Shown piece after piece: positions 5,434-25,053 of a stretch of 32,916 bases of DNA. The DNA is from Burkholderiales bacterium (GTDB lineage: Bacteria > Pseudomonadota > Gammaproteobacteria > Burkholderiales > Burkholderiaceae_D). The stretch's first letter is position 1. Every line of letters begins with the position of its first letter. The notes beneath the pieces are model-generated. The model was given only the letters and a program-made list of their open reading frames with translations, ran no database searches and had not been told where the DNA came from. A program made the translations under genes and the position numbers. The stretch covers positions 1-32,916 of the forward strand of contig CANJOT010000013.1 in NCBI GenBank assembly GCA_947475815.1, in the 5' to 3' direction.

Positions 5434-6273
5434 TCAGTGCGCCATGAGCACCGGCACCGTCATGGCATCAAGAATGCTGCGGGTCGCGCCACCCAACAGC
5501 AGTTCGCGAAAACGCGTATGGCCGTATCCGCCCATCACCAACAAGTCAACATTCAGATCAGCCACCAGCGACAACAGCGCATTGCCGATGTCGAGCGACG
5601 TGTTTTCAACACGCACCTCGACCTTGACGCCATGGCGGGCCAGATACAGGCCAATATCGGCACCGGGTTGTTCGCCGTGATCATAAGATTGCGATGCGGG
5701 GTTGATGACGACCACCGTGACCGCCTGCGCCTTTTGCAGCAGCGGGAGAGCACCGGTCAGGGCATGAGTGGCTTCAACGCTGCCATCCCAGGCCACCAGC
5801 ACCTGCCCGCCAATGCGCTCGAATTTGCCAACCCGCGGCAGCAGCAGCACCGGACGACCGGAATTGAGCATGACGTATTCGGGCAGGTCGGAGATGGCGC
5901 TGGAGACCGGATCATCACGGTCACTCTGGCTGATGACCACCAGATCGGCATAGCGTGCCTGCAGGGCCAGACCGCTGGCCGGGTCTTCATTGACCAGCCG
6001 GGTTTCGTACGAGGACACGCCAACATTGCCGACGATGGAATCAAACACCTTGGTCGCACCCTTGGCGGCCTCGTCAGCGGCGTCCATCAGGCTTGAAAGA
6101 ATCATGCCGGTAGGATCCATGGCCACATCCTGATAGATGTAACGCGCAATGCCGTTCATGGCCACGCCGGCAAGATGCGCATTCTGGTCGACCGCCAGCT
6201 GGGCGGCGGCCGTCATGCGCGCATGGGCATGACTGGAATGATCAACGTGGACAAGTATGCTGGTGTAGGACAT
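5434..6273 (-). CDS. Universal stress protein, two-domain UspA family
   Basis: A 279-residue protein with two Usp folds. The first starts YTSILVHVDHSSHAHARM; the second starts near QVLVAWDGSVEATHAL and ends with the nucleotide-binding-type loop GGYGHTRFRELLLGGATR followed by SILDAMTVPVLMAH. The second domain shows G-x2-G-x9-G-G, close to the ATP-binding pattern G-x2-G-x9-G-(S/T). The ATG at 6273 is chosen because AAGGAA precedes it and the Usp fold begins directly after it; the frame continues upstream without family similarity. A near-consensus FNR/ANR box lies upstream, and some Usp proteins in Pseudomonas are Anr-induced for anaerobic survival, so oxygen control is plausible. Confidence 0.9.
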   Translation of the reverse strand: MSYTSILVHVDHSSHAHARMTAAAQLAVDQNAHLAGVAMNGIARYIYQDVAMDPTGMILSSLMDAADEAAKGATKVFDSIVGNVGVSSYETRLVNEDPASGLALQARYADLVVISQSDRDDPVSSAISDLPEYVMLNSGRPVLLLPRVGKFERIGGQVLVAWDGSVEATHALTGALPLLQKAQAVTVVVINPASQSYDHGEQPGADIGLYLARHGVKVEVRVENTSLDIGNALLSLVADLNVDLLVMGGYGHTRFRELLLGGATRSILDAMTVPVLMAH

Positions 6274-6337
6274 GGAATTTCCTTGAGTGATGGGTTGCCT
6301 GTGCGCGGTTGTTTCACATCCTCTGCGCGACATCCTC

Positions 6338-6366
6338 ATGCTAGGACGGTTTTGGGTGCCCGTCCA
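6338..6366 (-). promoter_or_regulatory. Possible promoter of the universal stress gene
   Basis: On the minus strand TGGACG (6366-6361; 4 of 6) and TAGCAT (6343-6338; 4 of 6) are separated by 17 bp. This would place the FNR-type box at 6405-6418 about 80 bp upstream of the start of transcription. The boxes are weak, so this is tentative. Confidence 0.3.
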
Positions 6367-6404
6367 GCGGCCAGCCCACACAGAGAGTGATTGTTCGACG
6401 ATTT

Positions 6405-6418
6405 TTGATGCAGGTCAA
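6405..6418. promoter_or_regulatory. FNR/ANR/DNR-type box upstream of the universal stress gene
   Basis: TTGAT-GCAG-GTCAA matches the consensus TTGAT-N4-ATCAA at 9 of 10 positions. It lies between the divergent universal stress gene (start 6273) and the CoA-transferase gene (start 6508). The assignment to the stress gene is inference from known Anr control of some usp genes. Confidence 0.6.
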
Positions 6419-17347: not shown

Positions 17348-17382
17348 TTTGCACGATAACAACAAATATGTTATCGTGCAAA
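17348..17382. promoter_or_regulatory. Perfect 14-bp inverted repeat, likely operator of the AbiE-like cassette
   Basis: TTTGCACGATAACA (17348-17361) and its exact reverse complement (17369-17382) flank a 7-nt spacer. It holds a possible -35 (TTGCAC, 17349-17354) and, 17 bp further, a weak -10 (TATCGT, 17372-17377), so a bound protein would block transcription. An alternative promoter TTGATA (17318) with CATAAA (17342) lies just upstream. There is no T-run after it, which argues against a terminator. Classical AbiEi antitoxins bind inverted repeats to repress their own operon, so autoregulation by the next gene is the favoured reading (inference). Confidence 0.75.
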
Positions 17383-18396
17383 AACACTGTTATAAATCTA
17401 CCCAACGTGGACCAACTCGCGACACGCGCCCTCGCCTATCTGCACGAAACCTTGGACGTTTCCACGGCAACAACGCAACCGTGGCACGGACGGGATGAAC
17501 TGCCTTATTTCATCCGCGACGCGTTTGATTTCGAATGCATCGAACTGCACGGCACCGCCATCTTGCTGGCCCAAGACCGCCGCCAGGAGCGGTCGTCCCC
17601 CCGTGACATCAAAACCTGGCTAGAGACCATTCGGTCCCTGACCGGCTACCCGGTTGTTTATGTGACGGACTCAGTCGTCTCTTATGAGCGCAAGCGCCTG
17701 ATCGAACAAAAGGTGCCCTTCATCGTGCCAGGCAACCAGCTTTATCTGCCCGATCTGGGCATCGACCTGCGGGAATACTTTCGTCAGTGGCGCGGCCCGA
17801 CACAAGCACCACTGAGCCCCTCGGCGCAGGCACTGCTGATCACGGCCTTGTTGCGCCAACCGTGGGCGCCCGAATGGTATCCGGGCGAAGCCGCGGCCCT
17901 GCTTGGCTATTCGTCGATGACGATATCAAGGACGGTGCATGAACTGGCCGCCGCCGGTCTCGCCGAGATACATAAAGTCGGGCGCTCCCAATATCTGGCC
18001 ATGAAGCATGCTCCACGTGAAATGTGGGAGCAGGCCAATCCGTTGATGCGCAGCCCGGTTCAGCGCAGTATCTGGACAGCCACAACAAGTACGCCGCAAC
18101 CACCGCTGCGAATCGCCGGACTGAGCGCATTGGCAAGCCAGACCATGCTCAACGAACCACGAATCCGGGTCTGCGCCATCAACCGCACCACTTGGCTCCG
18201 CATTAAAGCTGAAATCGAAGAATTGCCAGAAGCCCGGCCCGGCGCGCAGGAGTGGCAACTCTGGAACTACAGTCCGATGATTGAGCCCGCGACCCTGACA
18301 GTCGATCCGCTCTCACTCATACTGAGCCTGCGCGACAACACTGACGACCGCGTTCAGGAGGCCATCGACGTCCTAAAGGAGCAACTGCCGTGGTAA
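17368..18396 (+). CDS. Winged-helix protein, putative antitoxin/autoregulator of an AbiE-like module
   Basis: A 342-residue protein in three parts. Residues about 14-145 form an alpha/beta domain that I do not recognise as a named family (TGYPVVYVTDSVVSYERKRL, then VPFIVPGNQLYLPDLGIDLR). Residues about 150-215 form a winged helix (YPGEAAALLGYSSMTISRTV, ELAAAGLAEIHKVGRSQYLA). Residues about 230-342 form a C-terminal domain. It overlaps the next gene, an AbiEii-like nucleotidyltransferase, by 7 bp, the order expected for antitoxin before toxin. Unlike AbiEi, the winged helix is in the middle, not at the N-terminus. The start is uncertain: the ATG at 17368 lies inside the inverted repeat and has no ribosome binding site; GTG at 17407 is an alternative. 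Confidence 0.75.
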   Translation: MLSCKNTVINLPNVDQLATRALAYLHETLDVSTATTQPWHGRDELPYFIRDAFDFECIELHGTAILLAQDRRQERSSPRDIKTWLETIRSLTGYPVVYVTDSVVSYERKRLIEQKVPFIVPGNQLYLPDLGIDLREYFRQWRGPTQAPLSPSAQALLITALLRQPWAPEWYPGEAAALLGYSSMTISRTVHELAAAGLAEIHKVGRSQYLAMKHAPREMWEQANPLMRSPVQRSIWTATTSTPQPPLRIAGLSALASQTMLNEPRIRVCAINRTTWLRIKAEIEELPEARPGAQEWQLWNYSPMIEPATLTVDPLSLILSLRDNTDDRVQEAIDVLKEQLPW

Positions 18397-19184
18397 AAGG
18401 CCTCGACATCTTTCGTGAATGGTTCGCGCAGTATCCCGACCAGTATTTCTTGATTGGTGGCACTGCGGCAAGTCTAACAATGGAGGAAGCTGGCCTGGAA
18501 TTTCGGGCCACCAAGGATCTTGATGTAGTCCTTCACGTTGAAGCATTGACTGCAGGCTTCGGTGAAACCTTCTGGAAATTTATCGAAGCTGGAAAATATG
18601 ATATCCGGCAAGCGAGTGATAGGGGACGGCCAAGCTTTTATCGCTTCCAAAAACCCGCTGATGACCGCTTCCCGGTCATGGTTGAACTGTTTGCACGCGC
18701 ACCCGACGTGCTGCGCCCCATCAAGAACGGACAACTTACGCCAATTCCCTTTGACGAGGTGGTTTCCAGTCTTTCAGCGATTCTGCTCGACGATGACTAC
18801 TATGCATTCATTACCGCTGGCGGGCGTGAAAGCGAAGGTTTGACCTGGATAGGCGAAGATCGTCTGATACCGCTCAAGGCAAGTGCCTGGCTGGACCTGA
18901 GTGCACGGAAGCAGCGAGGCGAGCAGGTGGACACCAAAAACATCCGCAAACACGCCAACGATATTCTAAGATTGTCGCAACTTCTTGCGGCAACCACCAG
19001 AATACCGTTACACGGCAAGATTGCCGACGACATGCGAAAATTCTTGAATGCTGTGGCCGACGATACATCGCTCAACCCAAAAGCTTTGGGCTTGGGCGGG
19101 ACAAGCTTGACCGAGATATTGGCTCGCGTCGCCCAAGCGTACCTGCCACACGATGGAACGGATAATCGCTCTGATCTGAACTGA
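18390..19184 (+). CDS. AbiEii-like nucleotidyltransferase, putative toxin
   Basis: A 264-residue protein of the nucleotidyltransferase (DNA polymerase beta-like) superfamily. The core motif is visible: GG at residues 23-24 in YFLIGGTAASL, then D43 and D45 in RATKDLDVVL, and a third acidic candidate, E99 in FPVMVELFARA. The C-terminal half has KASAWLDLSARKQRGEQ, then a K-N-I-R-K-H-A-N-D-I-L-R-L helix, as in AbiEii-type proteins. AbiEii-related toxins transfer nucleotides to tRNA or other targets and arrest growth. GTG start at 18390 with AAAGGAG 8 nt upstream, overlapping the preceding stop by 7 bp, so translation is coupled. Base composition is clearly less GC-rich than in flanking genes, suggesting transfer. 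Toxicity is inferred, not shown. Confidence 0.78.
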   Translation: MVKGLDIFREWFAQYPDQYFLIGGTAASLTMEEAGLEFRATKDLDVVLHVEALTAGFGETFWKFIEAGKYDIRQASDRGRPSFYRFQKPADDRFPVMVELFARAPDVLRPIKNGQLTPIPFDEVVSSLSAILLDDDYYAFITAGGRESEGLTWIGEDRLIPLKASAWLDLSARKQRGEQVDTKNIRKHANDILRLSQLLAATTRIPLHGKIADDMRKFLNAVADDTSLNPKALGLGGTSLTEILARVAQAYLPHDGTDNRSDLN

Positions 19185-19209: not shown

Positions 19210-19287
19210 ATCGTGTTGCAAACCGGATCAAAACAACACCTCACCGAGCTCCATGTAACTCATGATCTATATCGTAAAAGCAGACCA

Positions 19288-20061
19288 ATGAAAATCGCCA
19301 CCTGGAACGTCAACTCCCTCAAGGTTCGCCTTGGCCACGTGCTCAACTGGCTGGCCGAAAATCCGGTGGATGTGTTGTGCCTGCAGGAAACCAAACTCAC
19401 CGACGACAAGTTTCCGGTGGCGGAGATCGAGGCCGCTGGTTATCAGCCACTGTTCGCCGGGCAGAAAACCTACAACGGCGTGGCCCTGCTGGTGCGCCAG
19501 GGGCGCGTGACCGCGGACGTCACGGTCAACATTCCCGGTTTCGAGGATGAACAGAAGCGCGTCATCAGCGCGACCGTCGATGGTGTGCGTATCGTCTGCG
19601 CTTATGTACCGAACGGTCAGGCGATCGATTCGGACAAGTATCAATACAAGCTGCGCTGGCTGGCGGCGATGCGCGACTGGATCGCAGACGAACTGAGCCG
19701 CCATCCCAAGCTGGCCCTGCTCGGGGATTACAACATCGCCCCGGAAGACCGCGACGTGCATGATCCAAAAGCCTGGGAGGGGCAGGTGCTGGTGTCGGTG
19801 CCGGAGCGCGCCGCGCTGGCCGCCTTGCAGGCGCTCGGTCTGCACGATTCCTTCCGGCTGTTCGAGCAGGCGGAAAAATCGTTCAGCTGGTGGGACTATC
19901 GCATGCTGGGCTTTCGGCGCAATGCCGGCATGCGCATCGATCACATCCTGCTCTCCGACGCCTTGCGCGCCGCCTGCACGGCCTGCGTCATCGACCGCGC
20001 CCCGCGCAAGCTGGAACAACCCTCCGATCACACGCCGGTGATCGCAACCATCGAAGGCTGA
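19288..20061 (+). CDS. xth: Exodeoxyribonuclease III
   Basis: A 257-residue AP endonuclease / 3'-5' exonuclease of the ExoIII (EEP) family, which cleaves DNA at abasic sites in base-excision repair. Catalytic motifs are all present: MKIATWNVNSLKVRL (metal-site Asn), CLQETKL (Glu34), ALLGDYNIAPEDRDVHDP (Asp, Asn), SWWDYR, RIDHILLS, and the terminal PSDHTPV with the active-site Asp-His. The length is near E. coli XthA (268). The ATG at 19288 is where family similarity begins; the frame is open upstream to 19213 but that part is unrelated. It is convergent with ubiT. The upstream cassette seems inserted between this gene and the DHH gene. Confidence 0.96.
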   Translation: MKIATWNVNSLKVRLGHVLNWLAENPVDVLCLQETKLTDDKFPVAEIEAAGYQPLFAGQKTYNGVALLVRQGRVTADVTVNIPGFEDEQKRVISATVDGVRIVCAYVPNGQAIDSDKYQYKLRWLAAMRDWIADELSRHPKLALLGDYNIAPEDRDVHDPKAWEGQVLVSVPERAALAALQALGLHDSFRLFEQAEKSFSWWDYRMLGFRRNAGMRIDHILLSDALRAACTACVIDRAPRKLEQPSDHTPVIATIEG

Positions 20062-20077
20062 GCGTCACCGTTCAGCC
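20056..20077. terminator. Inverted repeat across the convergent xth and ubiT stops
   Basis: GGCTGA (20056-20061) and TCAGCC (20072-20077) are 6-bp arms that contain the stop codons of both convergent genes, around a 10-nt loop. No T-run follows on either side, so it is at best a weak or Rho-assisted bidirectional terminator. Confidence 0.3.
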
Positions 20078-20497
20078 ACGGGCCTGCGCGAAGAAGGGCA
20101 GCTCCAGTGCATCGAGTGTGTTCTTGATCAACAGACCGAGCTCGGTATCGCCTTCAATGGCCAGGCGCCGGCTGAAGAACAGGGTGTCGGGATCTTCCTG
20201 ACGCCGCATCAGCAGGTAGAAGTCGCGCGCACAGGCGGCGATGGTGACATCGGCCAGCACATCGGCGCGGCAGGCGGAGAACTGCCGGCCATCGCAGCGC
20301 ACATCAAAGCGCAGCTGTGCGTCCGTGACGCGCACGCGCACGACCTTACCGGTCAGGGCCGCCAGCACGTCGGCCGGCAAGCGCCCGCGCAGCACCAGAT
20401 TCACTGCATTGGCAAACAGAAAAGAACCTGGCACAACGGGTAGCAGGGACAGCAGTCTGCCCAGAGCGGCAGGCAGTTGGGGCGAGGTCGGATTCAA
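20072..20497 (-). CDS. ubiT: UbiT, SCP2-domain ubiquinone biosynthesis accessory protein
   Basis: About 141 residues with an SCP2 (sterol-carrier) domain, a lipid-binding fold. The C-terminal signature RRQEDPDTLFFSRRLAIEGD followed by TELGL and KNTLDALEL closely matches E. coli UbiT. UbiT binds isoprenoid ubiquinone precursors and supports the O2-independent pathway with UbiU and UbiV, encoded just upstream. The start is uncertain: the frame is open to 20743 inside ubiV, but no family sequence is seen before the SCP2 domain. A TTG at 20497, with GGAG 8 nt upstream, gives a sensible N-terminus (NPTSPQLPAALGRLLSLLPV). There is a 79-bp gap after ubiV. Confidence 0.85.
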   Translation of the reverse strand: MNPTSPQLPAALGRLLSLLPVVPGSFLFANAVNLVLRGRLPADVLAALTGKVVRVRVTDAQLRFDVRCDGRQFSACRADVLADVTIAACARDFYLLMRRQEDPDTLFFSRRLAIEGDTELGLLIKNTLDALELPFFAQARG

Positions 20498-20576
20498 TAG
20501 GGTGACTCCATCACATGCAGCGGGCTGAACTACAGAGGACTGAACGACTGCGGCAACAAGGACAGCGGTAAAAACC

Positions 20577-21497
20577 TCAGGCCTGCGCGCCGCGCTGACC
20601 GCCGGATTGCGCGACATGCCACTCCAGACCCGGCGCACCATGCCAGAAACCATTGCATAAACCGGTCGGTAGCAGGCTGTTGATTTCCTGCTGCACATCG
20701 ACGGCAGCAAGCCGCCCGGCCAACACGCCGGATACGCCGTCAATCAGCCGGACCATATGCTGCGATTGCGGCGCAATGCGCACCACCGACACCCCCAGAT
20801 CACGCATGTCATCAAGCGCATCAAGCAGATTGTTGTAGCGTGCCGACTGCGTCTGGATACCGTTGAGCACGAGGAAATCTTCGCCCTCGCGGGTCTTGAG
20901 GAGCAGTCCGTCGGCATCGGCAAGGCAACTGAAGCGGCAGTCATCCTTGGGCAGGTCGTGATGGCGTGCCGTGAAACAGCGCGCCGAATGCGCCAGCGGC
21001 ATGCGGCCGTGCACAAACACTTCGGTCTCAGGCAGCGTCGCGCCGGAAGCCAGAATCTGCGCCAGATTGGCGCGGCTCATTTCAAAGGGCATCACCCAGC
21101 GGCAGGCACCCAGTCCACCGAGCAGCTGCACACTCTGTTCGTTGTAGAGATTGAGAGACGGCCCGGCCACGAAGGGCAGTCGATCGGCGAGCAGATGTAC
21201 CGCACCCATGTCGTTGGCCTCGACCAGAAAACGGCCGTTGCCGGTGATGCGCTGCAGCAGCGTAATGTCCGACTTGGACTCGAGCAGGGTCTGTGTCGAC
21301 AACACCACTTCCTTGCCGGCGGCGCTGAGCGTCTCGGCGATCGCCAGCCAGTCCGGCAGACGAAATTCGTGACGCCGTGCGCAGACCGTTTCACCGAGGT
21401 AGACAATATCGACGGGCGCGCTGGCGAGCATGTCATAAAACGCCAGCGCCTCCACACGGGGCCAGAGGTAGGGCAAAGGACCGACAGAAAGTTTCAT
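20577..21497 (-). CDS. ubiV: UbiV, O2-independent ubiquinone hydroxylation protein (U32 family)
   Basis: A 306-residue peptidase-U32-like protein. E. coli UbiV and UbiU form a heterodimer, each with a 4Fe-4S cluster, that hydroxylates the ubiquinone ring without oxygen, using prephenate as oxygen donor. The four cluster cysteines are present: C39 (GETVCARRHE), C174 (HSARCFTARH), C187 and C191 (KDDCRFSCLAD). The 174-187-191 spacing equals that of E. coli UbiV (180-193-197), and C39 has the same number. The ATG at 21497 starts at the family N-terminus MKLSVGPLPYLWPR; the frame is open to 21530. It lies 7 bp after ubiU. Confidence 0.95.
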   Translation of the reverse strand: MKLSVGPLPYLWPRVEALAFYDMLASAPVDIVYLGETVCARRHEFRLPDWLAIAETLSAAGKEVVLSTQTLLESKSDITLLQRITGNGRFLVEANDMGAVHLLADRLPFVAGPSLNLYNEQSVQLLGGLGACRWVMPFEMSRANLAQILASGATLPETEVFVHGRMPLAHSARCFTARHHDLPKDDCRFSCLADADGLLLKTREGEDFLVLNGIQTQSARYNNLLDALDDMRDLGVSVVRIAPQSQHMVRLIDGVSGVLAGRLAAVDVQQEINSLLPTGLCNGFWHGAPGLEWHVAQSGGQRGAQA

Positions 21498-21504
21498 GTG
21501 CTCT

Positions 21505-22500
21505 TCATTTCCATGAACGGTGGTAAGCACCGAGGGTGTGCTGCTGACCCTCGGCCACCTTGTTGAGTTCGCTCATCCAGACCGGCTTGACGGCATATCG
21601 CTGGTGTTCATCGAGGCACTGATCGATGGCCGCACGCCACACCCGGGTGACCTGGCCGACGTAGGCCGGACTGCGTTGCCGGCCCTCAATCTTGATGGCG
21701 CGCACACCCATGGCGGCCAGCTGCGGCAACAACTCGAGGGTGTTCAGGCTGGTCGGTTCTTCGATGGCGTAATACTCCTCGTCATTGACGTCAAAACGCC
21801 CTTTGCACAGCGTGGGATAGCCGGCCAGTTCGCCATCGGCATAACGGTCGATGAGCACGCCATTGAGGCGCGACTCGAGCCCGGCCGGTGTCTGTTGCCA
21901 GCGCACCGCCTTGGCGGGCGAACACACGCCATGGGTATTCGGCGCCTCGCCGGTCACATAGGACGACAGCGCACAACGCCCTTCAACCATCACGCACAGA
22001 CTGCCAAATCCGAACACTTCGATTTCCACATCCGTGTTGGCGGCGACATCGGCCACCTGGGCAAGCGACAAGACGCGCGGCAAGACCGCGCGCCGGATAC
22101 CAAAACGCGCGCCGTAAAAATTGATCGCCTCGTGGTTGGTGGCCGAGGCCTGTACCGAGAGGTGCAGATGCACCTCTGGCCAGGTGGTACGGGCGTAGTC
22201 CATGAGTGCCGGATCGGCGAGCAGAATGGCGTCAATGCCGGCCTCGGCGGCACGGTCAATCGCTTTGCGCCACGTGCCACCCTGCAATGCCTGCGGGTAG
22301 GTATTGAGCGCCATCAAGACCTTGCAGCCGCGCTCGTGCGCGTAACGCAGGCCCTGCTCGAGCGTCTGGTCATCAAAATTCAGGCCGGCAAAATTGCGCG
22401 CGTTGGTGGCATCGCGAAAGCCGAGGTAAACGGCGTCAGCGCCGTTGTCAACGGCCTGCTTGAGGGCCGGCAGACTGCCCGCCGGACAAACCAGGTCCAT
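21505..22500 (-). CDS. ubiU: UbiU, O2-independent ubiquinone hydroxylation protein (U32 family)
   Basis: A 331-residue U32-family protein, the same length as E. coli UbiU, and partner of UbiV. With the start at 22500 (MDLVCPAGSLPALKQAVDNG) the cluster cysteines fall at C169 and C176 (GSLCVMVEGRCALSS), C193 (THGVCSPAKA) and C232 (YPTLCKGRFD), the same numbers as in E. coli UbiU. AGGTG lies just upstream of this ATG. The frame is open to an ATG at 22560, which would add 20 residues without family similarity (TLKTPLRKNSRANAAGQVA). An FNR-type box lies upstream at 22626. It is the first gene of ubiU-ubiV-ubiT and should be induced without oxygen (inference). Confidence 0.95.
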   Translation of the reverse strand: MDLVCPAGSLPALKQAVDNGADAVYLGFRDATNARNFAGLNFDDQTLEQGLRYAHERGCKVLMALNTYPQALQGGTWRKAIDRAAEAGIDAILLADPALMDYARTTWPEVHLHLSVQASATNHEAINFYGARFGIRRAVLPRVLSLAQVADVAANTDVEIEVFGFGSLCVMVEGRCALSSYVTGEAPNTHGVCSPAKAVRWQQTPAGLESRLNGVLIDRYADGELAGYPTLCKGRFDVNDEEYYAIEEPTSLNTLELLPQLAAMGVRAIKIEGRQRSPAYVGQVTRVWRAAIDQCLDEHQRYAVKPVWMSELNKVAEGQQHTLGAYHRSWK

Positions 22501-22625
22501 CGCCACCTGCCCGGCCGCATTGGCGCGGGAATTTTTTCTCAAGGGGGTCTTCAGGGTCATCTTGTTGGTTACCGGTCATTCATGCAGGGACGGGGCACTG
22601 TCGCCGACTGAACGCCGGCAACGCC

Positions 22626-22639
22626 TTCATGCAGATCAA
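22626..22639. promoter_or_regulatory. FNR/DNR-type box upstream of ubiU
   Basis: TTCAT-GCAG-ATCAA matches TTGAT-N4-ATCAA at 9 of 10 positions. It is 66 bp upstream of the longer possible ubiU start and 126 bp upstream of the preferred one. No good -10 hexamer is visible at the class II distance (CGACAG there), so the exact promoter is unclear. Confidence 0.6.
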
Positions 22640-22667
22640 GGAATTCTTACCCCTTGGCCCGCCATGT

Positions 22668-23360
22668 TCAGTGGTGCTCATGGCTGTACGCCGCCAGAGC
22701 AGCGGCGTCGACGACGGTGATGATGCGGCCACTGACGTCAATCAACTGGTGGTTGACCAGGTCGTGGAGAATGCGCGAGAAATGTTCGGGTGTCAGACTC
22801 AGGCGCGAAGCCACCACGGTCTTGCTGGCGGGCAGGGCAAAACGGTTGCCATCATTGTCCCGATGGTTCCTGAGCAGAAAGCTGACGACACGCTGTGTGC
22901 CGGAATCGAAGGAATTGGACGCCATGTCCTGCAGCAGACCCTGCAGTTGCAGGCTCATGCTGAGCAGCATCCTGCGTGCAAAGCGCGGCTCGGCGTCGAG
23001 CGCATTGAACACCACGTCGCTGGGCACATGCAGCAGGACGGAATCACCCAGAGCCTGAGCATTGACGATGTGCGGCCGGTCAAGAAAAATCAGGCCTTCA
23101 CCAAAGCTGTGGCCGGCCTCGACGATGGCGAGGACTTTTTCGATGCCCTGGGATGAAGCCAGCGCGAGTTTGACACGGCCCACCACCACTGCATGAAAAC
23201 CGGCGCAGGGATCGCCCCGGCGAAACACAAGCTTGCCGCGCGCCACGCGCAACACCGTGGTGGATGCGGCAACGCGCGCCAGATCGACTGGGCCAAGCTT
23301 GCTGAACAAGGGCAAGCCGGACAGGAAGCCGGCAACCTTCGTGGTTTCTTTACTCTTCAC
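22668..23360 (-). CDS. Crp/Fnr-family transcriptional regulator (DNR-like)
   Basis: A 230-residue Crp/Fnr protein. The cyclic-nucleotide-binding fold spans about residues 12-125 (FLSGLPLFSKLGPVDLARVA, GEGLIFLDRP), the dimerisation helix follows, and the C-terminal winged helix is at about 155-215 (TVVASRLSLTPEHFSRIL). The recognition helix has ExxSR (E192, S195, R196), the FNR/DNR-type motif that reads TTGAT half-sites, not the CRP type. There is a single cysteine (C52), so the FNR 4Fe-4S sensor is absent; a heme/NO-sensing DNR-like role is possible. GTG at 23360, with GAGG 6 nt upstream, is preferred to TTG at 23372. It is adjacent to ubiUVT, and a box precedes both. Confidence 0.9.
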   Translation of the reverse strand: MKSKETTKVAGFLSGLPLFSKLGPVDLARVAASTTVLRVARGKLVFRRGDPCAGFHAVVVGRVKLALASSQGIEKVLAIVEAGHSFGEGLIFLDRPHIVNAQALGDSVLLHVPSDVVFNALDAEPRFARRMLLSMSLQLQGLLQDMASNSFDSGTQRVVSFLLRNHRDNDGNRFALPASKTVVASRLSLTPEHFSRILHDLVNHQLIDVSGRIITVVDAAALAAYSHEHH

Positions 23361-23408
23361 CGCCTCCCTCAATCACCAGAGCGATGCCGGCAATCGTGCC
23401 GGCAGGAC

Positions 23409-23450
23409 ACTTTAGCAAAAGCGAATGGCGCAAAGATTGACGTGGATCAA
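23409..23450 (-). promoter_or_regulatory. Class II FNR-type promoter of the Crp/Fnr gene
   Basis: TTGAC-GTGG-ATCAA (23437-23450) matches the FNR/DNR consensus at 9 of 10 positions. On the minus strand TAAAGT (23414-23409; 4 of 6 to TATAAT) lies at the distance that puts the box centre near -41.5, the classical activation position. The transcript would start near 23402, some 40 nt before the gene. Control may be by the regulator itself or by another Fnr-type protein. Confidence 0.65.
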
Positions 23451-23490: not shown

Positions 23491-25053
23491 TCATTGCCCC
23501 TCGTCATGCTCCAGACCGAGTTCCTGGATCTTCCGGGTAATGGTATTGCGACCGATGCCCAGACGATGAGCGGCCTCAATGCGGCGCCCGCCGGTGTGGC
23601 GCAAAGCCACCCGAATGACGGCGGCCTCAAACTGTCGCGTCAGCTGCTCCATGACCTGCTCGCCGCCCTGCGACAGCAGGCCTGCGGCAGCGCGCGCCAG
23701 TTCTTCTTCCCAGCCGCCCTCCACAACGCTGGCCGGCTCGCTACTTGCCGGTAACAGACTGGCGGGCAAACTGGCAGATACGCTGGCAGGTACGCTGACA
23801 GGCGCGCTGGCCGGGGCATTGGCGGCCGGCATGTCGGCCTCGGGCTTGCCCGCTGACCGGCCGAGGGCGCGCGCCTTCAAGGCGGCATCGGGTGCACGCA
23901 TTTCGGGGGGCAGATCTTTCACCTCGACCATCTGTGCCGGCGCCATCACGGTCAGCCAGTGACAGAGGTTTTCCAGCTGACGCACGTTGCCCGGAAAGCT
24001 CAGGGTACACAAGACCTTCATGGCGGCATCCGAAATGCGCTTGGTTTCCACGCCCAGATCCTTGGCGCTTTTCTGCAGGAAATTGCGTGTCAGCAGCGGG
24101 ATGTCTTCGGCGCGCTCACGCAGCGCTGGCAGGCGCAGGCGGATGACGTTGAGGCGGTGATACAGGTCTTCGCGGAACAGGCCCAGGTGCACCAGTTCAT
24201 CGAGGTTCTGGTGGGTCGCGGCAATCACGCGCACGTTGGCCTTGAGCGGACTGTGGCCGCCGACGCGGTAGAAGTGGCCGTCCGACAGCACACGCAACAA
24301 ACGCGTCTGCAACTCGGCTGGCATGTCGCCGATTTCATCGAGGAACAGGGTGCCGCCTTCGGCCTGTTCGAAGCGGCCGCGGCGCATGGTCTGCGCGCCG
24401 GTGAAAGCGCCACGCTCGTGGCCAAACAACTCGGACTCAAGCAGGTCTTTGGGTATGGCCGCGGTATTGAGCGCGATGAACGGCTGGTTGGTGCGCGGGC
24501 TGTGCTTGTGCAGGGCCTTGGCGACCAGTTCCTTGCCGGAACCCGACTCGCCGGTAATAAGCACCGTGACGTTGGACTGGGCCAGCCGGCCGATGGCACG
24601 AAACACATCCTGCATGGCCGGCGCCTGCCCAAGGATCTCGGGCGTGGCTTCAATTTTTTCTTCGACGCCGGCTTCGCGCAGACTTTCTTCGACGGCGCGG
24701 CGGATCAGCTCGACGGCCTGATCGACATCAAAAGGCTTGGGCAGGTATTCAAAAGCACCGCCCTGAAAGGCCGACACGGCCGACTCGAGATCGGAAAACG
24801 CGGTCATGATGATGACCGGCAGGCCGGGGTGTTTCGCCTTGGCTTTGGCGAGCAGCTCGAGCCCGGCATTGGCGGTGATACCGCCCGGCATGCGGATGTC
24901 AGACACCAGGACCTGAGGCGAGCCCTGCTCGAGGGCGGCCAGCGCCTCCTGTGCATTGCTGAAGGTACGGCAGGGCAAACTCTCGCGCGCAAGCGTTTTT
25001 TCGAGAACCCAGCGGATCGACTGATCGTCGTCAACTACCCAGATTGGCTTCAT
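23491..25053 (-). CDS. ntrC: NtrC, nitrogen-regulation sigma-54 activator
   Basis: A 520-residue response regulator. Order: receiver (about 1-120; acidic D8-D10, phosphoacceptor D52 in VSDIRMPGG, lysine in YLPKPFD), AAA+ domain (about 140-375; Walker A GESGSGKE, the sigma-54 contact loop ELFGHERGAFTGA, RVIAATHQNLDE), and a Fis-type HTH at the end (RIEAAHRLGIGRNTITRKIQ). NtrC is usually about 470-480 residues; the excess is a low-complexity A/P/S/V linker (about 410-435) before the HTH. It acts with NtrB upstream and should bind the enhancer sites in front of glnA. The ribosome binding site is weak. Confidence 0.96.
   Translation of the reverse strand: MKPIWVVDDDQSIRWVLEKTLARESLPCRTFSNAQEALAALEQGSPQVLVSDIRMPGGITANAGLELLAKAKAKHPGLPVIIMTAFSDLESAVSAFQGGAFEYLPKPFDVDQAVELIRRAVEESLREAGVEEKIEATPEILGQAPAMQDVFRAIGRLAQSNVTVLITGESGSGKELVAKALHKHSPRTNQPFIALNTAAIPKDLLESELFGHERGAFTGAQTMRRGRFEQAEGGTLFLDEIGDMPAELQTRLLRVLSDGHFYRVGGHSPLKANVRVIAATHQNLDELVHLGLFREDLYHRLNVIRLRLPALRERAEDIPLLTRNFLQKSAKDLGVETKRISDAAMKVLCTLSFPGNVRQLENLCHWLTVMAPAQMVEVKDLPPEMRAPDAALKARALGRSAGKPEADMPAANAPASAPVSVPASVSASLPASLLPASSEPASVVEGGWEEELARAAAGLLSQGGEQVMEQLTRQFEAAVIRVALRHTGGRRIEAAHRLGIGRNTITRKIQELGLEHDEGQ
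23759..23818 (-). repeat. 12-bp tandem repeat in the ntrC linker
   Basis: Five imperfect 12-bp units based on CTGGCAGGTACG on the plus strand (23759, 23771, 23783, 23795, 23807), encoding a repeating four-residue A/P/S/V pattern in the hinge between the AAA+ and DNA-binding domains. The repeat keeps the frame. Confidence 0.8.

Follow-up and report, generated by a model that had tools for sequence, protein, structure and literature searches.

The window, by which we mean the whole stretch of 32,916 nucleotides analyzed here, comes from a 3.93-Mb draft genome of a Burkholderiales bacterium (377 contigs, 98.65% complete). On its minus strand the genes follow one another in the order glnA, a gene for a DUF4124 protein, ntrB, ntrC, REG, ubiU, ubiV and ubiT, after which comes an exoA-like gene on the plus strand. 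REG (22668..23372, minus strand) encodes a Crp/Fnr protein that belongs to the Dnr-like lineage and is 234 amino acids long when read from the TTG at 23372; its relatives suggest a start at the GTG at 23360. The three genes behind it on the same strand, which serve the oxygen-independent synthesis of the respiratory coenzyme ubiquinone, are ubiU (21505..22560; NF047963, 559.4 bits, cut-off 440), ubiV (20577..21530; NF047965, 381.1 bits, cut-off 275) and ubiT (20072..20743; NF047962, 137.7 bits, cut-off 46.9), and since all three products score over their NCBIfam cut-offs, the identity assigned to them in an earlier note on this DNA is borne out. The ubiT reading frame overlaps ubiV, and the true ubiT start probably lies later than the start of the frame. 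The nearest matches to the UbiU of this genome, with up to 79% identity, belong to Oxalobacteraceae and other Burkholderiales. REG and ubiU are separated by 107 bp, a gap in which no terminator-like site was found on the minus strand. Positions 22626-23450 thus span REG together with the two predicted boxes described below, and the ubi genes occupy 20072-22560.

The module is flanked on its upstream side by ntrC (23491..25053, minus strand; TIGR01818, 672.7 bits, cut-off 558.6) and on the other side by the plus-strand gene at 19213..20061, which we take to be exoA/xth-like. REG and ubiUVT, four genes in all, fill the ntrC-exoA junction as one block. The junction was compared across the 5 of 30 loci with an NtrC of more than 50% identity nearby: exoA and ntrC are directly convergent in four of them, ntrC lies about 1.2 kb away in the fifth, and no REG or UbiU was found in these five genomes at the thresholds used, among the matches listed. 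Insertion of the block as a unit and its loss in the relatives both fit this pattern. A foreign composition of the module was considered and rejected, as its GC content equals that of the window (0.620 in both) and so gives no compositional sign of transfer. Beyond the exoA-like gene, two adjacent reading frames at 17368-19184 resemble an AbiE-type pair by eye; they had no match in Pfam or PADLOC.

The REG protein carries both domains of the Crp/Fnr superfamily at scores over the cut-off (PF00027, 56.9 bits; PF13545, 55.8 bits). Its reading head is of the ExxSR type (E196-x-x-S199-R200), C56 is its only cysteine, and against the four-cysteine FNR family NF008365 it reaches 46.6 bits, below the cut-off of 228. 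Judged by its single cysteine and this score, REG is not an iron-sulfur FNR, in agreement with the earlier note, which had pointed to the single cysteine and the ExxSR motif. The same note had called the regulator DNR-like, and this also holds: the closest solved protein is Pseudomonas aeruginosa DNR (PDB 3dkw, E 3.7e-30), and in a 60-row tree REG groups with members of its family among Dnr-like relatives, at a fork that the tree leaves unresolved. The terminal branch of REG in this tree measures 1.24, against a median of 0.23. A comparison of 14 genomes gave REG a best identity of 54.8%, where the others range from 62 to 77%, whereas UbiU is not unusual in the same comparison (77.6%; others 74-89%). 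REG is most likely a fast-evolving regulator of the Dnr lineage, and its fast evolution may reflect a relaxed function.

Two predicted FNR-type boxes accompany these genes. The box upstream of REG, TTGATCCACGTCAA (23437..23450, minus strand), is an exact TTGAY-N4-RTCAA palindrome (10/10), and the weaker box in the REG-ubiU gap, TTGATCTGCATGAA (22626..22639, minus strand), lies within CCTTGAT-N4-ATnAAGG. Read on the plus strand, the two sites are TTGACGTGGATCAA and TTCATGCAGATCAA, respectively, and each agrees with TTGAT-N4-ATCAA at 9 of 10 positions, which confirms the boxes that the earlier note had placed upstream of REG and ubiU. Its further proposal of a -10 element at the class II distance from the REG box is plausible: a putative extended -10, TGC-TAAAGT, with its hexamer at 23409..23414 on the minus strand, can be read from the sequence, and with transcription inferred to start at 23402 the box, centered at 23443.5, would stand at -41.5 (class II). 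A sigma-70 scan did not report this hexamer. No good -10 was seen at the class II distance from the 9/10 box on the ubiU side.

Sites of this kind are more frequent than expected. With up to two mismatches to TTGAT-N4-ATCAA, the window holds 26 sites, whereas shuffled sequences average 7.74 and reach 16 at most; for TTGAY/RTCAA, 60 dinucleotide shuffles gave expectations of 0.03 exact sites and 2.45 sites with at most one mismatch, where the window has 2 and 9. Sites with one mismatch also occur within genes of the window (22304, 22732, 24718 and 25021), as would be the case if the two boxes were chance matches beside independent genes. However, only 0.017 sites with at most one mismatch are expected by chance in the two gaps (225 bases), and the REG promoter site is found again in another genus, as described below; chance, which the shuffles also reject, is an extremely improbable explanation. 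A motif scan of the whole genome, one of the checks named in the earlier note, returned 25 exact palindromes versus 3 for a reversed-pattern control. These include sites near ccoN, hemN, narK and ompW, and many of the 25 lie within or between unrelated reading frames. A regulon map based on them was not retained, as anaerobic targets could be read only for ccoN, hemN, narK, ompW and a universal stress protein gene. The latter, a typical FNR/Anr target, lies in the window (5434-6381, minus strand), with an exact TTGAY-N4-RTCAA upstream of it at 6405-6418.

The arrangement recurs outside this genome. In a genome of another genus (G280), REG again lies directly upstream of ubiU, in the order box-REG-ubiU-ubiV-ubiT seen in the window. 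The two REG proteins are 52% identical, the boxes upstream of REG share 13 of 14 positions, and the distance from the box to a -10-like hexamer is the same to within 1 nt. The REG-ubiU gap of G280 holds CCTTGATGCATATTAAGG where the window has its weaker box. The extended form CCTTGAT-N4-ATnAAGG was tried as a distinctive REG motif and discarded, since besides the window and G280 it matched two other loci among those compared, too few for this use. Among 12 loci chosen for their weaker REG matches (35-39%), nine have a more distant REG on the same strand as ubiU and immediately upstream of it, at a gap of 87-187 bp; two G230 loci, taken for UbiU and FNR, were not counted. In the nine loci with this order, any box adjacent to REG either overlaps a -10-like hexamer or comes after it, a placement that would suit repression rather than activation; the direction of control may therefore vary between loci. 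Of the 45 loci scanned at ubiU, 26 showed no upstream box with at most one mismatch, and the same was true of 35 of the 43 scanned at REG; the scanned loci are partly redundant and comprise those in which the anchor was found more than 200 bases from the start of the stretch. In a divergent group the REG-ubiU interval is occupied by a further reading frame, and no box was found there.

Linkage between the two genes was assessed in 392 genomes of the family, counting REG at 42% identity or more (matches to E 8.4e-58). Among the matches listed, REG is present in 104 of the 392 genomes, and 97 of these 104 also have UbiU (94 from the listed UbiU matches and three from the genome table), against 47.8 expected under independence with relatedness ignored. 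Of 94 genomes, 31 have REG no more than 10 kb from ubiU and 66 no more than 25 kb, again among the matches listed. The corresponding figure for FNR within 25 kb of ubiU is 0 of 38, among the matches listed, these being the genomes with both FNR and UbiU matches; the two share a contig in 9 of the 38. In a wider sample drawn from the order, with REG matches counted to E 6.5e-42, REG and ubiU stand within 12 kb of each other in 10 of 43. Between or beside them are found genes for a hemerythrin and a membrane protein and, in some loci, NrdDG, HemN, NarK or NDH-2.

Two further proteins recur in these islands. The membrane protein, of about 430 amino acids (positions 208-1512 of locus L166; also L272 and L277-L281), is found beside REG and ubiUVT and is absent from the block in the window; it has no match in Pfam or NCBIfam. 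A reading frame of about 130 amino acids appears at 2800-3204 of L166 and, by a likeness judged by eye, in the REG-ubiU interval of L263-L269; the L166 copy had no Pfam or NCBIfam match.

Which protein acts at the boxes is a separate question from their presence. A search of the genome for Crp-type helix-turn-helix domains gave five matches, two of them strong, full Crp/Fnr proteins: REG and a four-cysteine FNR scoring above the NCBIfam FNR cut-off. The FNR gene shares a short contig (C215) with a piece of cbb3 oxidase, and another contig (C2) opens with ccoN, accompanied by an exact box; the assembly has probably divided a single cco-fnr cluster between the two contigs.

Control of ubiUVT by FNR-type factors is not new. 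It is described for E. coli Fnr in the available part of PMC10470549 and for P. aeruginosa Anr in that of PMC10247376, and a survey of Pseudomonadota (PMC11707229, ISME J 2024), as far as its accessible text goes, gives FNR sites upstream of ubiU in 1180 of 1566 loci and, in 1362 of 1566, a predicted FNR site before ubiU, ubiT or both. The window resembles the Fnr and Anr systems in its FNR-type box, in the genes concerned and in the probable anaerobic activation; in those systems, however, the regulator is a global iron-sulfur FNR encoded elsewhere, whereas here the gene of a one-cysteine Crp/Fnr protein heads the ubi genes. It likewise shares with the survey a predicted site ahead of ubiU and/or ubiT, whereas the survey attributes its sites to FNR and has no "dnr" in the text available. 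A closer parallel in layout is Sphingopyxis granuli, where, in the part of PMC7713065 at hand, fixK (SGRAN_3861) adjoins ubiTUV (SGRAN_3858-3860) by locus tag and boxes lie upstream of both, at -60.5 and -40.5. There too a Crp/Fnr gene stands beside ubiTUV; by the same source, however, that FixK has four cysteines (the iron-sulfur FNR type) and belongs to an alphaproteobacterium, while REG has one. No Dnr-type regulator for ubiUVT was found in the open-licence papers searched, and neither Rodionov 2005 (PMC1274295) nor PMC12403760 contained ubi or U32 terms in its text. The recurrent regulator of the Dnr lineage in operon position was thus not found in print.

Because FNR-type control of these genes is known and the genome encodes a four-cysteine FNR beside REG, the boxes cannot be assigned to REG alone and do not by themselves implicate it; FNR boxes and REG boxes are indistinguishable. 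Genomic linkage is therefore the stronger evidence for REG. FNR might nevertheless drive the operon alone, with REG carried along in an island of anaerobic genes and having no action on ubiUVT. The true FNR of this genome and the published frequency of FNR sites at ubiU agree with such an account, and the presence of NrdDG, HemN, NarK, NDH-2, hemerythrin and the membrane protein in REG islands means that the linkage of REG to ubiU may reflect shared anaerobic use. Against it, the block in the window consists of REG and ubiUVT only, REG occupies the operon position in at least three genera, and the FNR gene itself is unlinked to ubiU. We consider control by FNR alone a possible explanation of the locus and, on balance, an unlikely one.

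The signal to which REG responds is a further point. The earlier note tied ubiUVT to a neighboring NO- or redox-sensing regulator, and of this proposal the neighborhood link stands and is recurrent, while NO sensing is not supported. Were REG a heme-based NO sensor of the DNR type, it would tie anaerobic ubiquinone synthesis to NO. In favor of this, DNR is its best solved match, with the same domains and the ExxSR motif; annotated relatives adjoin heme d1/nitrite reductase genes (Eleftheria) or nap genes (Vitreoscilla); and the genome carries pieces of narG as well as narK, which would allow nitrite and some NO to be formed. However, DNR, the NO sensor of denitrification, has H139 and H187, and in the alignment of the two proteins REG has Gln and Arg at these positions. 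The C-helix His is kept in 58 of 59 aligned rows (the window and 58 relatives), the window protein having Gln (Q144), and the surrounding RRLHGLI of the relatives reads LQLQGLL. The position of DNR His187, presumably a heme ligand, corresponds to R190 and is Arg across the clade. The REG of G280 keeps the C-helix His, and in the nine operon-type loci with a more distant REG it is replaced by Leu. In this 98.65% complete assembly, moreover, NirK was not found, NirS is represented by a weak PF02239 match and no clear NirS, and NorB was not among the three PF00115 (COX1) matches, which were partly read by eye. We take these three to be an aa3 oxidase and two cbb3 pieces; the CcoN piece is confirmed, and the others are presumed from their place and from recall. 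No denitrification genes beyond nitrate reduction were found in the genome. With no NirK or NorB found, no clear NirS and the C-helix His lost, NO sensing is the least supported element of the earlier proposal, and we regard it as improbable.

From the gene identities, the boxes and their geometry, the recurrence and the linkage, we infer with moderate confidence that box-REG-ubiU-ubiV-ubiT forms an operon induced under anaerobic conditions and controlled by FNR and/or REG, with REG as a local regulator of the Dnr lineage. In such an operon the site at -41.5 would recruit an FNR-type activator, which may be the four-cysteine FNR of the genome and possibly REG; as both carry ExxSR, REG itself is a possible activator there. 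Transcription would begin some 30-40 nt ahead of the REG start codon and run on through the 107-bp gap into ubiUVT, and REG may adjust its own operon, perhaps via the other palindrome, the one between REG and ubiU. A bolder proposal, which we put forward tentatively and hold to be rather doubtful, is that ubiUVT in this family has its own autoregulated, operon-encoded Crp/Fnr regulator, derived from Dnr, freed from NO sensing and responding to some other signal (e.g., quinone or redox state), the regulator and ubiUVT moving together as a self-contained unit.

The global FNR is the factor usually held to switch UbiUVT. A further regulator standing repeatedly in front of ubiUVT would represent a second, pathway-specific layer of control, and the way in which bacteria match quinone supply to nitrate respiration would become testable. 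The loss of a His that is near-invariant in the clade offers a concrete handle on a possible change in sensing.
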